A stretch of 56,189 nucleotides of DNA, from assembly GCF_000327285.1 (NCBI RefSeq), contig NZ_HE998567.1, positions 925,186 through 981,374 of the forward strand, written 5' to 3'. Under the pieces are notes generated by a model that ran no database searches, was not told the DNA's origin, and saw nothing but the letters and a program-made list of their open reading frames with translations. The translations under genes and the position numbers were made by a program. Below are positions 28,345 through 35,043 of this stretch, one piece after another. The stretch is from Holdemania massiliensis AP2. Its GTDB lineage: Bacteria > Bacillota_I > Bacilli_A > Erysipelotrichales > Erysipelotrichaceae. Numbering within the stretch: the stretch's first letter is position 1; each line of letters starts with the position of its first letter.

Positions 28345-29334
28345 TCACCGTTCTCTTACCGTATTATGTCCTGTCAAAATTTCAACTGCGATTTCCTGAT
28401 CAGAGTAATCAGGATATTTGTGTTTTATCTCTGAAATTCGCTGAATATAACCCTCTTCTTCCATCAGATCCTCTGCAATTTCTGCAATCGTTAATCCTTT
28501 TTCTAATTTCTTCAGAGTTTGCCTGATCAGTTTAAGAAGCGCGCCTTGCGCCAGGCCCTGCTCCATAGCCCGCTCTCTTGCACGCCGAATCTCTCCATTG
28601 CGTACCATTGCCCGATCTAACCGATCCGTCTCGTTCATGTATTCAATCATATCCATTGGAATTTCCTGCATTTTTTTCACTGCCTTTCTGCAGCCTTCAT
28701 TCATTGACATGATCTGTTCAATCCACTTTTCCTTTTCGGGGTCACCCGCAAATTTAAACACAATTCGCCAATGATCTAAAGCCGATAAGCGATCAAGTGG
28801 TTTTCGTAATAGACGTCCTGCTGTCCCTGCCTCAATAATACTCACTTGAATATGTTTTGTCAAGCTCATTCCTGTCTTTTCCCCTACAAGGTAGAAGAGT
28901 ACATCACTGATCTCCTCTTCCTTTTTTCCTTTAAGTAAAGAAAAATTCGTGATCATGATGACCCGTACCGGCTTTAACTCACTATAATCTTTCCCTTTTG
29001 TAGCCTGACTGGAAAGCAGCCGAGATAAATAAAACACAATCCGAATCTCTTGATCTTCTAAATTTCCTTCTTGTTGAATTTCCAAATCAAAGTAAATTTC
29101 TTCATTGATAATTCCCCGAATATCATAACGGATTGCTTTAGAATCCGGATGCTCAACCCGTTCCTCGTTGGGAAAGAGTCTAATTTTTTTAAAGCTGGGA
29201 TCAACTGCCATTAAAAAGCTAACAAGAATAGATGGATCTTCCAGATCATAAAATACATATTTAAAAACCCAATCCATCATTAACGAAATACGTTTACGCT
29301 TACTTTTCTTAGGCTCAAGCAGATTTGTGGACAT
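28345..29334 (-). CDS. Rpn family recombination-promoting nuclease / putative transposase
   Basis: A 329-residue protein of the PD-(D/E)XK nuclease superfamily (Rpn/PDDEXK_2). The N terminus holds MDWVFKYVF and a DPSILVSFLMAVDP segment, followed by RYDIRGIINEEIYFDLEIQQ with the Asp and Glu-x-Gln catalytic pattern and FYLSRLLSSQ. The C terminus (about 240-329) is charged and helical, typically variable in Rpn proteins. E. coli relatives (RpnA-E) promote RecA-independent recombination and cut DNA. No terminal inverted repeats were seen. Copy C of the dispersed element ends 17 bases before the start codon. GAGGAGG precedes the ATG. Confidence 0.85.
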   Translation of the reverse strand: MSTNLLEPKKSKRKRISLMMDWVFKYVFYDLEDPSILVSFLMAVDPSFKKIRLFPNEERVEHPDSKAIRYDIRGIINEEIYFDLEIQQEGNLEDQEIRIVFYLSRLLSSQATKGKDYSELKPVRVIMITNFSLLKGKKEEEISDVLFYLVGEKTGMSLTKHIQVSIIEAGTAGRLLRKPLDRLSALDHWRIVFKFAGDPEKEKWIEQIMSMNEGCRKAVKKMQEIPMDMIEYMNETDRLDRAMVRNGEIRRARERAMEQGLAQGALLKLIRQTLKKLEKGLTIAEIAEDLMEEEGYIQRISEIKHKYPDYSDQEIAVEILTGHNTVRER

Positions 29335-31836: not shown

Positions 31837-32181
31837 TTACAAGTCTATTTCCGTGAGAACCAATGTACCTTGCAGCTGTTTCAGCTCATAGAGAAACGGA
31901 TATTCGTTCCTGTCGGATAAAACTAAATGCCACTGTGCTCTCTTTAACGTACTTGTTCTTTTGGTAAGCGGATTATAATAAGTGATTTTATCCGGCACTA
32001 AAAACAGATCCTCGCGATTTTGAAAACGTGTCCTCAACTGCTGAAAAAGAAATTCTGGTTGGATTAAAATTGCATCGAGCTGATTGTTATATTCTTCTCG
32101 ATCTTCCATCCATTCTAGTACCGACGTACTGTTTTTCATAACGGAGATGAATTCATCCCGAATCATATACCCTTTTAACAT
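31837..32181 (-). CDS. Hypothetical protein
   Basis: No family recognised. A 114-residue soluble, mixed-charge protein with no signal peptide or membrane segment. It contains a WMEDREEYNNQLDAIL helix and a beta-rich C-terminal half (TYYNPLTKRTSTLKRAQW, LYELKQLQGTLVLTEIDL). An initial MLKGYMIRDEF leaves two possible starts. Small, AT-rich and isolated between yneF and the regulatory island. Confidence 0.6.
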   Translation of the reverse strand: MLKGYMIRDEFISVMKNSTSVLEWMEDREEYNNQLDAILIQPEFLFQQLRTRFQNREDLFLVPDKITYYNPLTKRTSTLKRAQWHLVLSDRNEYPFLYELKQLQGTLVLTEIDL

Positions 32182-32506
32182 CTTCTCACCCTTTTCAGTA
32201 TATCAATTTGCATTCTGATTTTTTGTCGAAAAAAAACGATGATGAACCAGACTCCCTATCTGATTCACCATCGTCACTTGTGATCGTTTTTGCACCTAAT
32301 TAATAGACGATCACTCACCAATTTTTTTATCATTTTTCTACAAGCAAGACGTCAAATAAATATCGATTATGTTTTTATTCTCACTGTAGCGGTCCGGTTT
32401 ATCATGCTTTTGTAATTTAGATCATTTACTTGTTTCGCTCTCTCGTTTTCCCGTATAATGCATCACCCATTACGCTGACATAACAAACACTGTTGTAGAT
32501 TTTTAA
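32182..32506. other. Intergenic, long 3' region of the peptide gene
   Basis: No gene seen. It holds a minus-strand terminator (32229-32274) and a plus-strand promoter-like pair TTGTTT / 18 bases / TATAAT (32430-32459) that points at the 3' end of the peptide gene. Confidence 0.5.
32229..32274 (-). terminator. Strand-specific terminator after the peptide gene
   Basis: A 15-bp stem (32236-32250 with 32260-32274). On the minus-strand RNA it pairs fully with two G-U pairs, followed by eight T; on the plus strand those positions would be A-C mismatches. It serves minus-strand transcription. Confidence 0.8.
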
Positions 32507-32668
32507 TTATTGCCACATGCAATCAGGCGACGAGCATCCCATTGGTTCAATGCACAATTCAGGATGTTCTACAGAACAACCATTCTGATCAGTACCTTCA
32601 GCACTAATGGAAGTGCATAACATGCCAACTGTCATGATAGCAATAAGGCTAATTAAAAACTTTTTCAT
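32507..32668 (-). CDS. Small secreted cysteine-containing peptide, candidate signal
   Basis: A 53-residue pre-peptide with a strong ribosome site (AAGGAGG) before the ATG. The N terminus MKKFLISLIAIMTVGMLCTS is a textbook signal peptide, with likely cleavage after ISA (residue 23). The mature part is about 30 residues, acidic, with four Cys (residues 31, 39, 45, 50) and the C terminus SSPDCMWQ. It is not a known bacteriocin that I recognise. It lies 104 bases downstream of an XRE-TPR regulator on the same strand, the usual place of RRNPP signal peptides, and has a good -10 box but a poor -35. Alternatives are a disulfide-bonded antimicrobial or toxin peptide under that regulator. Confidence 0.7.
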   Translation of the reverse strand: MKKFLISLIAIMTVGMLCTSISAEGTDQNGCSVEHPELCIEPMGCSSPDCMWQ

Positions 32669-32696
32669 ATATCCTCCTTTCAACATTTATAATTAT

Positions 32697-32702
32697 ACCT
32701 AT
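32697..32702 (-). promoter_or_regulatory. Probable activator-dependent promoter of the peptide gene
   Basis: Minus-strand TATAAT about 28 bases before the start codon, with no good -35 hexamer at 16-18 bases, suggesting need of an activator. Confidence 0.45.
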
Positions 32703-32772
32703 AAAATATCTTAAACTTGAAATTTGATACAACTACTAGAAATAAGCAATTAATCACTTATAATATTACATA

Positions 32773-34083
32773 TCAGTCAATTTTATGCGAAGTAAAATCA
32801 TTAAAACTTTTCAGATCTTTATAACATTTCGTTATTTTAACAAGTTTATTGAGTTCATATTCAAAATAATTTATTAAGTTATCAGATCTATATTTGTTTA
32901 CTAATACCTTATGTATATCATGCATTATATAAGTTTCTATTTCTTTTTCCGGTGCTTTATTAATCTTTAATAGAAAATATTCAAAGAACACCTTACAAAT
33001 ATCATTTTTCTTATTTTCATCACATTTTAATGCTCTGAAATACTCATCTAATGAATTTGTTTTTAATTCTTCTGCACAATGTAAAATGTATAATATATGC
33101 ATAGTGAACGGCGGTTTATATTCTAAATATTTTTTGAAATACTCTATAGCCGATAAATAATCCTTGTCATAATAGTAATGAAAACCTATATTGAAATAAT
33201 TTTTTTCTAATTTCTTATTACTTAAAACTCCTTTAGCTAAAGAAAGACACTCAATTGATTTATCAAAATAATATTTTACATTTTCTTTATTTCCAGTATG
33301 TAAAGCTAAGGCTTTAGTAAAATACAGTATACCCAATTGATAATCAGACTTCAAATTATCAAAATAATCAATTGCATCATTAGTTATTTCTAATGCATCA
33401 AACCATTTTTCTTTATACATTAACCAACCTGCTATAAAATATGCTGATAGCTTTGAACCATTATCAAAACGAATCAAATCCTGATAAACTTTCTCGGCAA
33501 TAAACATATTACTTTCCCAATAATAGAAATAGTCAAAAAAAATATTTAATAACAATTCCTCTAACTTAGAATTCAGTATAAAACTAATTCTTATCATTAA
33601 ATCAGATTTGTCTTTTTTAGGATATTCTACATATAGATAATAATGTATAATTATTTTCAAAACATCATAAATATCTTTATAATAAAAGTAATTCTTAGCT
33701 TTATAAAAAAGATTCTCCACTTCGTGATCAATCCTTTTTATCCTGTCTACATCATACATTTCAACAGCAGTATATAATTCCTCGCTGATCCGCTCAACAT
33801 TGGACATGATTCCTGGAAAATCATCGACCTGAAAACCTAATTTCTGAATAAAGAAGATATATAGATCATCATCTTTTATACTTTGGCCTCGTTCTAAACG
33901 ATTTAATGTCGCTCGTGAACAAACAGGGGCACCTTCAATGATTTCATAAAAAGGATGTTCCTTTGTCGCCAAAATAAACTCATTACAGCTGAATTGCTTA
34001 TCCTTCGATCTCTGATGCCGCCGTTCACGATATATTTTAATCAGACGTCCACTGTTTTCTCGCATTTTATCATTCGCAAACAT
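32773..34083 (-). CDS. XRE-family regulator with TPR-like C-terminal domain (RRNPP-like)
   Basis: A 436-residue cytosolic regulator. The N-terminal 80 residues are a helix-turn-helix: CSRATLNRLERGQSIKDDD is the recognition region. The rest is all-helical with TPR-like repeats (clear at about 200-345, e.g. LGILYFTKALALHTGN and YFNIGFHYYYDKDYLSAIEY). This design is that of RRNPP receptors (PlcR, Rgg, ComR type) that bind re-imported peptides. A small secreted peptide gene follows directly. The gene is very AT-rich with Asn, Lys, Tyr and Ile codons unlike its neighbours, suggesting transfer. A GGGGGA ribosome site is present, and an inverted repeat lies upstream. Ligand and target are inferred. 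Confidence 0.8.
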   Translation of the reverse strand: MFANDKMRENSGRLIKIYRERRHQRSKDKQFSCNEFILATKEHPFYEIIEGAPVCSRATLNRLERGQSIKDDDLYIFFIQKLGFQVDDFPGIMSNVERISEELYTAVEMYDVDRIKRIDHEVENLFYKAKNYFYYKDIYDVLKIIIHYYLYVEYPKKDKSDLMIRISFILNSKLEELLLNIFFDYFYYWESNMFIAEKVYQDLIRFDNGSKLSAYFIAGWLMYKEKWFDALEITNDAIDYFDNLKSDYQLGILYFTKALALHTGNKENVKYYFDKSIECLSLAKGVLSNKKLEKNYFNIGFHYYYDKDYLSAIEYFKKYLEYKPPFTMHILYILHCAEELKTNSLDEYFRALKCDENKKNDICKVFFEYFLLKINKAPEKEIETYIMHDIHKVLVNKYRSDNLINYFEYELNKLVKITKCYKDLKSFNDFTSHKID

Positions 34084-34136
34084 TTTTATCCCCCTTTACA
34101 AATTCCGGTTATATTCTATCACATAAAATAATGAAC

Positions 34137-34164
34137 ATTGGTATTATTTGGGAATTCTACCAAT
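34137..34164. promoter_or_regulatory. Inverted repeat, candidate operator of the XRE-TPR regulator
   Basis: ATTGGTA (34137-34143) and TACCAAT (34158-34164), perfect 7-base arms 21 bp centre to centre, that is two helical turns. It overlaps the expected -35 region of the regulator gene. Confidence 0.5.
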
Positions 34165-34209
34165 CAAATCATATCATAATTTTATGAATGCAGAACGTTT
34201 TGTAATCAT

Positions 34210-34272
34210 TTTAGAAGCGAAATAAGCAAAGTTGCCAAAACTTTATTCTTCAGCTTCTAAATGCTTTTTTTT
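34210..34272 (+). terminator. Hairpin with T-run upstream of sigK
   Basis: Stem TTTAGAAGC/GCTTCTAAA with a loop of about 36 bases, followed by nine T on the plus strand. No plus-strand gene precedes it, so it is either a leader element of sigK or the end of a small RNA. Confidence 0.45.
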
Positions 34273-34338
34273 TCATAAAATATGTCAGATTTCGACTAAA
34301 TTCTTGTTTTGCTTCATACGCTGAAGAAGGTGATAACA

Positions 34339-35043
34339 ATGTGGACACAACTATTTCAAATGCTACAGGTTTTCTTCAGCTGCTTTATCGGCTCTATCCG
34401 TACAACCTCCTTTCCCCAGCCCTTATCCGCAGAAGAGGAACAGGACGCTCTGCAGAGAATGGCGAAGGGAGATGTGGAAGCCCGCGCGGATCTGATTGAA
34501 CACAATCTTCGCTTGGTTGCGCATATCGTTAAGAAGTTTGATATCCGCCGTGAACAGACTGAAGATCTCATCAGTATTGGCACAATTGGTTTGATTAAAG
34601 GCATTGATACCTTTAAGGTCGACAAAGGTCATAAGTTGGCGACGTATGTTTCACGCTGCATTGAGAATGAAATCTTGATGCATCTGCGCAACAATAAGCA
34701 TGCTTTCCAGACTCGTTCTCTGGATGACGCGATCGGTCAGGATAAGGATGGCAGTGAACTTACGCTCATTGACGTCATTCCGGCTCCGGATGAGCCCGAT
34801 CCCATCGATAAGCTGATGCTGGAAGAAAACAAACGCAAGCTAGCTCAGTTTATGAACTTGCTGGATGATCGTGAATACAGCATCATCGTCCGGCGTTATG
34901 GCTTAGAAGGTCATCAGGAAATGACGCAGCGGGATATTGCCCGTCAGGAACATATCTCACGATCTTATGTGTCGCGAATTGAGAAGCGAGCTTTCATGAA
35001 ACTTCTGCGGGCGTTTATGAAAGAGAATCAGGAAAAGAAGTAG
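34339..35043 (+). CDS. sigK: RNA polymerase sporulation sigma factor SigK, pro-protein form
   Basis: Late mother-cell sigma factor of sporulation. The ATG at 34339 has GAAGGTGATAACA upstream; this start gives 234 residues. The first 20 residues are hydrophobic (WTQLFQMLQVFFSCFIG), like the pro-sequence removed by SpoIVFB in Bacilli, followed by FPQPLS, which is nearly invariant in SigK. Region 2 (LIEHNLRLVAHIVKKF, EDLISIGTIGLIKGI, CIENEILMHLR) and region 4 (YGLEGHQEMTQRDIA, SYVSRIEKRA) are intact in one uninterrupted frame, with no skin-type element. It is strong evidence that the organism can sporulate. Confidence 0.94.
   Translation: MWTQLFQMLQVFFSCFIGSIRTTSFPQPLSAEEEQDALQRMAKGDVEARADLIEHNLRLVAHIVKKFDIRREQTEDLISIGTIGLIKGIDTFKVDKGHKLATYVSRCIENEILMHLRNNKHAFQTRSLDDAIGQDKDGSELTLIDVIPAPDEPDPIDKLMLEENKRKLAQFMNLLDDREYSIIVRRYGLEGHQEMTQRDIARQEHISRSYVSRIEKRAFMKLLRAFMKENQEKK

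Follow-up and report, generated by a model that had tools for sequence, protein, structure and literature searches.

Does the pairing of a regulator gene with a gene for a small, exported, cysteine-bearing peptide in Holdemania (Erysipelotrichaceae) represent a circuit for sensing that peptide, or does the regulator merely control the release of a secreted product? The pair lies within a stretch of 56,189 nucleotides from Holdemania massiliensis AP2, which is referred to here as the window. We consider it likely that the locus encodes a chromosomal RRNPP-type peptide quorum-sensing circuit with a cysteine-pair C-terminal pheromone, its binding, secretion, processing and disulfide formation all being inferred.

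Layout and setting of the locus

An earlier note, made without database searches, had described the anatomy of the locus correctly: a 436-residue HTH and TPR regulator is followed, after a gap of 104 nt and on the same minus strand, by a downstream 53-residue ORF with a signal peptide. The ribosome-binding site (32680-32673), the TATAAT lacking a good -35 (32697-32692) and the strand-specific terminator (about 32275-32230) that it listed are also present. The unit is indeed more AT-rich than its surroundings, with GC contents of 26.9% in the regulator gene and 39.5% in the peptide gene against 48.3% for the window, whose most AT-rich 1.3 kb lies at the regulator-peptide locus. Missed at that stage were a conserved RNA before the terminator, a box at a fixed distance upstream of the -10, and a family-wide pattern of cysteine pairs. 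The features are as follows, with the basis of each in brackets.

32773..34083, minus strand: RRNPP-type receptor/regulator gene, 436 aa, ATG start (ORF, orthologs, AlphaFold model)
33814..34083, minus strand: XRE-type HTH domain, residues 1-90 (separate model, Foldseek)
32776..33813, minus strand: TPR sensor domain, residues 91-436 (VIA-align)
32724..32732, minus strand: conserved box TTGTATCAA, consensus TGTAWCAA, predicted activator site (pattern search)
32692..32697, minus strand: -10 box TATAAT of the peptide promoter (in 4/4 Holdemania genomes)
32673..32680, minus strand: ribosome-binding site AAAGGAGG (sequence)
32507..32668, minus strand: propeptide gene, 53 aa, ATG start (ORF, dN/dS, family-wide C-x4-C or C-x3-C tails)
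32237..32506, minus strand: structured conserved 3' RNA, from the peptide stop to the terminator (conservation, covariation)
32397..32488, minus strand: RNA helix P1, 10 bp, arms 32488-32479 and 32406-32397 (covariation)
32338..32389, minus strand: RNA helix P2, arms 32389-32379 and 32349-32338 (weaker in the most distant species)
About 32230..32275, minus strand: Rho-independent terminator (long GC-containing hairpin, then a T run)

The neighbours of the locus are sigK (34309-35043, plus strand), which is divergent from the regulator gene, a gene for a 114-aa protein, and UPF0154, which lies two genes downstream of the pair. These flanking genes are chromosomal and common to three Holdemania genomes. 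The 114-aa protein (window 31837-32181) follows the terminator in 4/4 Holdemania genomes and has no significant Pfam match. A few kb away lies a PD-(D/E)XK nuclease family transposase (PF12784; window 28345-29334, minus strand). The sigK genes of the window and of H. filiformis are intact; in Holdemania sp. Marseille-P2844 the gene is present as two parts 21 kb apart (G003:C14:127558-127950 and 148917-149291), an arrangement resembling that of a skin-type sigK-intervening element. H. filiformis also carries a decayed partial sigK copy (G002:C30:239757-240077) between the receptor gene and the intact sigK.

A regulator with the predicted fold of a peptide receptor

The suggestion that regulator and peptide form an RRNPP-like sensing pair is supported both by the regulator's predicted fold and by the conservation of the pair. 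Although Pfam recognised weak TPRs alone, an AlphaFold model based on an alignment with 48 homologs (pLDDT 94.1, pTM 0.91) predicts an RRNPP TPR superhelix joined to an XRE HTH. The earlier note had named a fold without a TPR peptide-binding groove as grounds for refutation, and the predicted fold passed that check. When the model was compared with the Protein Data Bank using VIA-align, ranks 1-10 were all RRNPP receptors (Rap and NprR, Z 20.2-16.5), among them RapF-PhrF and phi105 Rap (both 20.2), Rap-CSF (19.6) and NprR (19.1); lower rows held the unrelated TPR protein LGN (15.7), PlcR (14.2) and AimR (14.1). Foldseek returned ComR as its top two matches, with PlcR, Rap, NprR and Rgg2 inside the first 30. 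Rap and NprR are the closest structural matches; ComR, PlcR, Rgg and AimR were matched as well. The first 95 residues were also modelled alone; their top Foldseek matches, whose E-values were weak, were the DNA-binding domains of XRE type and those of lambda cI, Rgg2 and ComR.

Receptor orthologs in other Holdemania are 59-63% identical, and a scan of a public genome collection with the ortholog alignment matched H. filiformis and Holdemania sp. Marseille-P2844 alone. Identity between Holdemania species is 86-97% in the HTH and just 48-56% in the TPR part; a conserved DNA-binding domain joined to a quickly diverging sensor favours the pheromone-receptor reading. Among the receptors more widely, the HTH carries a conserved motif, ICSxxTLxxIExG. 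A conserved peptide-contacting Asn in the TPR groove is typical of RRNPP receptors; the candidate residue here, N298, is only partly conserved (Asn in 24/70 receptors), a point against the receptor reading in so far as N298 is indeed the groove residue. Where the recognition-helix region of the HTH begins, 55/70 receptors have a Cys (C55; window 33919-33921). The DNA-binding domain of Rgg2 reportedly has a notable cysteine of its own, C45, and the structure of a C45S mutant is said to have been solved.

The window's genome also contains a decayed second receptor (L049, G000:C1:1439529-1440278), with two TGA and four TAA inside. It is apparently the ortholog of an intact receptor in genome G003 (L012) with a peptide ending in RCGYPECDFGSY, but the decayed copy was found to have no intact peptide next to it.

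A constrained propeptide and its cysteine-pair tail

Positions 32507-32668 on the minus strand encode MKKFLISLIAIMTVGMLCTSISAEGTDQNGCSVEHPELCIEPMGCSSPDCMWQ, a propeptide composed of the signal peptide MKKFLISLIAIMTVGMLCTSISA followed by EGTDQNGCSVEHPELCIEPMGCSSPDCMWQ, with a putative C-terminal pheromone ending CSSPDCMWQ. In all four Holdemania genomes examined, the gene comes immediately behind that of the receptor, in the same orientation and with a gap of 103-106 nt (in G001, the receptor gene is divided between two contigs). The mature parts align as GCSVEHPELC(I/V)E..GC(S/T)(S/A)PDCM(F/W) in three of these genomes, and the fourth has a shorter version. Pairwise comparison of three Holdemania gave dN values of 0.29-0.31 and dS values of 1.6-2.6 (dN/dS about 0.1-0.2). 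Since dN is low while synonymous sites are near saturation, the peptide is a real, constrained gene. At such a dN/dS, a fast-evolving effector was rejected as a simple picture. The four cysteines are better taken as two pairs, a C-x4-C pair at the C-terminus and, upstream of it, a pair of Holdemania type.

About 70 distant receptor homologs were recovered, centred on the Erysipelotrichaceae: a profile search found related receptors in 56/273 genomes of that family, and a wider profile found receptors in 75/316 genomes of the order, all but two of them Erysipelotrichaceae. Adjoining these receptors are 24 distinct, credible small exported peptides with a C-terminal cysteine pair, 15 spaced C-x4-C and nine C-x3-C. 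The search had allowed spacings of 2-5, and every credible case was 3 or 4; two automatic calls (L014, L064) were judged artefacts on reading. The C-x4-C tails are CSSPDCMWQ, CTAPDCMFG, CSSPDCMFQ, CTSPDCMFQ, CGYPECDFGSY, CSFPECGFGG, CNKPGCNEA, CDSPECLDID, CYGSDCVSLN, CPGPGCDPS, CPQPLCKQL, CFGLGCKDH, CSSPGCWVIA, CILWEC and CLFDECG; the C-x3-C tails are CSPECWGV, CSPECWGI, CTPDCWL, CTLDCWGND, CIGICW, CPRSCW, CGFFCE, CWFNCE and CIVDCY. In the loops, the second cysteine is often preceded by Pro and an acidic residue. Outside the pair, the exported part differs between peptides in both sequence and length, the shortest being about 10 residues. Most of these peptides are encoded 88-162 nt downstream on the same strand, and some upstream or on the opposite strand. 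Conservation of regulator and peptide together, which the earlier note had made a test of its idea, therefore extends from 4/4 Holdemania genomes to Cys-tailed peptides beside about two dozen distant homologs.

This association greatly exceeds background. Of the 67 core receptors with enough downstream sequence to be counted, 22 are followed within 40-220 nt by a small exported ORF, compared with 1/152 same-family control genes (Fisher p 5e-12), and 14 of those 22 ORFs end in a cysteine pair, compared with 0/152 controls (Fisher p 2e-8; L014 is probably an artefact). These p values are uncorrected for relatedness among receptors. In 400 kb of random same-family DNA, five loose candidates and one strict candidate arose, none of them intergenic.

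The cysteine pair has its limits. More than half of the core receptors lack a recognised Cys-pair peptide, and in a quick tree of 96 regulators, whose deep branches are weak, a related XRE-TPR clade (n=26) has no Cys-tailed peptide. Because a sister clade (L027, L031, L032, L035 and L050) has linear basic tails instead (IHIKV, RIPVRC, VGITC, RTRIF), the pair is a major form of the tail without being universal. The UPF0154 gene found near the Holdemania pair recurs in two genomes of another genus (L066 and L069), where the gene immediately upstream of it encodes an XRE-TPR regulator from the peptide-less clade.

Of the alternatives to a pheromone, the one that survives best, though unlikely, is that the cysteine pair is a redox or metal switch, the peptide reporting an external state and the receptor recognising its reduced or metal-bound form. 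Holdemania is an anaerobe, the cytoplasm reduces disulfides, the C-x3-C or C-x4-C spacing also suits metal and redox chemistry, and the receptor's own HTH cysteine at position 55 is conserved. However, the Pro and acidic residue that precede the second cysteine also suit a tight disulfide turn.

Next comes the alternative that the earlier note itself had raised: a secreted, disulfide-stabilised effector, bacteriocin-like or host-facing, with the TPR regulator merely controlling its expression on another ligand. The four cysteines in the Holdemania exported part set it apart from short linear pheromones, and several relatives (L039, L052) have exported parts of 40-50 residues with 5-6 cysteines. 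Against these stand the variability of everything but the C-terminal pair, the pheromone-receptor fold predicted for the regulator, and the neighbourhood, since none of the genes adjoining the Holdemania locus was recognised as serving immunity, transport or modification. We regard an effector as improbable, and less likely than a signal, because the only family-conserved feature is a short C-terminal cysteine pair in the place where an RRNPP pheromone is expected.

A promoter with a predicted activator site

There is no TTGACA-like -35 at normal spacing from the TATAAT of the peptide promoter. Instead, the conserved box and the -10 are exactly 35 nt apart, measured from start to start, a spacing that is fixed across four diverged Holdemania promoters. 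The pattern TGTAWCAA-N25-28-TATAAT occurs once per Holdemania genome, at the peptide promoter, with one extra match in the window's genome; the reversed pattern, used as a control, gave one match. With its centre at about -42, the box would fit an activator that touches polymerase, an inference for which there are no binding data. The idea that the regulator activates the peptide gene thus gains indirect support from the absent -35 and the conserved box, and activation itself has not been shown. In the clade of CSPECW/CTPDCW peptides (L039, L052, L056), the promoters share a ACGAAAAATGGAAAAA-like element upstream of the -10, possibly the operator of that clade.

A structured RNA behind the peptide gene

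At 83-92% identity in three Holdemania species, against 67-68% for the two genes of the unit (67% for the peptide gene), the roughly 270 nt between the peptide stop and the terminator are its most conserved part. All pairs of helix P1 form in 4/4 species, and two of them have changed on both sides. A three-helix structure outperformed 500/500 shuffles and every slid version, in both percentage paired and covariation score, although with four sequences the statistics are thin. The covariance models of Rfam 15 gave nothing near gathering scores across 32000-34400. A covariance model of the RNA itself matched once per Holdemania genome and in 0/269 other genomes searched, that is, in 1 of 60 genera, and it detected no such RNA beside other Cys-pair peptides. 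Because no terminator separates the peptide gene from the RNA, we infer that the peptide transcript probably runs on into it.

Several identities for this region were rejected. It is not a family-wide part of the system, being absent from every other genus, nor is it 6S RNA, whose gene sits elsewhere in the genome. A second small gene is ruled out: the frame that is open in two species is interrupted in the window, where the region has no minus-strand ORF of 30 aa.

Could the RNA be the main product, with the peptide an exported by-product or timer, either as a dual-function RNA like RNAIII/hld or in an order like that of aimP-aimX? Its conservation, covarying helices, single copy and invariable place directly after the peptide invite this reading. 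We nonetheless give it little credence, third among the alternatives: the structural evidence rests on so few sequences, and the RNA cannot be the core of the system because it is confined to Holdemania while the receptor-peptide design is family-wide. Finally, XRE-TPR regulators are common and short ORFs easily over-called, yet a chance meeting of an ordinary regulator with an unrelated small ORF can be dismissed with near certainty, given co-occurrence in 4/4 genomes, purifying selection on the peptide and strong enrichment over same-family controls.

The proposed circuit

In the quorum-sensing circuit that we favour, the precursor would be exported via its signal peptide and trimmed outside the cell to a short C-terminal peptide around CSSPDCMWQ, whose two cysteines probably close a small loop; each of these steps is inferred. 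An oligopeptide permease is presumed to re-import the peptide, and the source genome encodes 12 OppA-type binding proteins (SBP_bac_5). Inside the cell, the peptide may bind the groove of the TPR domain, a step for which the fold is predicted and the binding inferred. The XRE domain would then activate the peptide promoter from the box near -42, replacing the -35; box and spacing are observed, and binding by the regulator is inferred. Such activation would create positive feedback. In Holdemania the transcript probably extends into the structured RNA, which may be a regulatory output; its conservation and structure are documented, its function is inferred. Related Erysipelotrichaceae receptors appear to follow the same design with different Cys-pair tails. 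Since a reducing cytosol would tend to open a disulfide, it may be some form other than the ring that is active.

We advance only tentatively, and at somewhat short of even confidence, the wider proposal that Erysipelotrichaceae pheromones are C-terminal, cysteine-bounded loops of 5-6 residues (C-x3-C or C-x4-C), oxidised or redox-gated, which are sensed by dedicated RRNPP receptors and in Holdemania also drive a dual-function RNA. If this is true, a family-wide cysteine pair at fixed spacing in the tail would make these bacterial signals, sensed inside the cell, chemically a new type; to our knowledge, every RRNPP pheromone yet characterised is a short linear peptide. The analysis supplies some two dozen pairs of receptor and peptide whose predicted ligands can be synthesised, as well as a predicted operator and, in a position suited to a quorum-sensing output, a new structured RNA. 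The host family consists of gut commensals for which no peptide quorum sensing was found described in the literature searched. That search revealed neither an RRNPP system from the Erysipelotrichaceae nor a Cys-pair or disulfide RRNPP pheromone, and it did not cover supplementary tables, including the lists of RRNPP_detector.

Comparison with known systems

RNAIII/hld of the agr system, as generally understood, likewise combines an exported peptide gene with a structured, conserved RNA, apparently on one transcript and near a peptide-sensing system. Holdemania differs in that there is no AgrBDC, no sequence or Rfam match, and the peptide itself is the candidate signal. Arbitrium (AimR-AimP-AimX) offers another parallel, with receptor, peptide and downstream regulatory product in a row and a fold match to AimR (Z 14.1). 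The Holdemania locus, in contrast, is chromosomal and syntenic in a bacterial genus, with no sequence relation to AimX seen. The receptor had no match in phage, plasmid or viral-contig collections, in searches whose sensitivity reaches close relatives only; there is thus no sign of a mobile, arbitrium-like version.

Closest are the systems of the RRNPP group, defined by a cytoplasmic receptor whose gene adjoins that of its propeptide (PMC10075063), a definition that the Holdemania pair meets on anatomy. PlcR-PapR, ComR-ComS and Rgg-SHP share with it XRE HTH and TPR activators adjoining small propeptide genes, as well as Foldseek matches; their pheromones, however, are linear, although one SHP is reported to begin with a single cysteine (PMC12445099). 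Rap-Phr and NprR-NprX provide the best structural match to the Holdemania TPR domain (VIA-align Z 16.5-20) and likewise encode an exported propeptide with a C-terminal signal close behind the receptor gene on the same strand. Sequence identity to them is only about 11-15%, and Holdemania differs in the fixed-spacing cysteine pair of the tail, in the conserved 3' RNA after the peptide gene and, relative to Rap, in possessing an XRE HTH. What is unusual, then, is a Cys-pair signal class common to a bacterial family, with a Holdemania-specific RNA attached to it.
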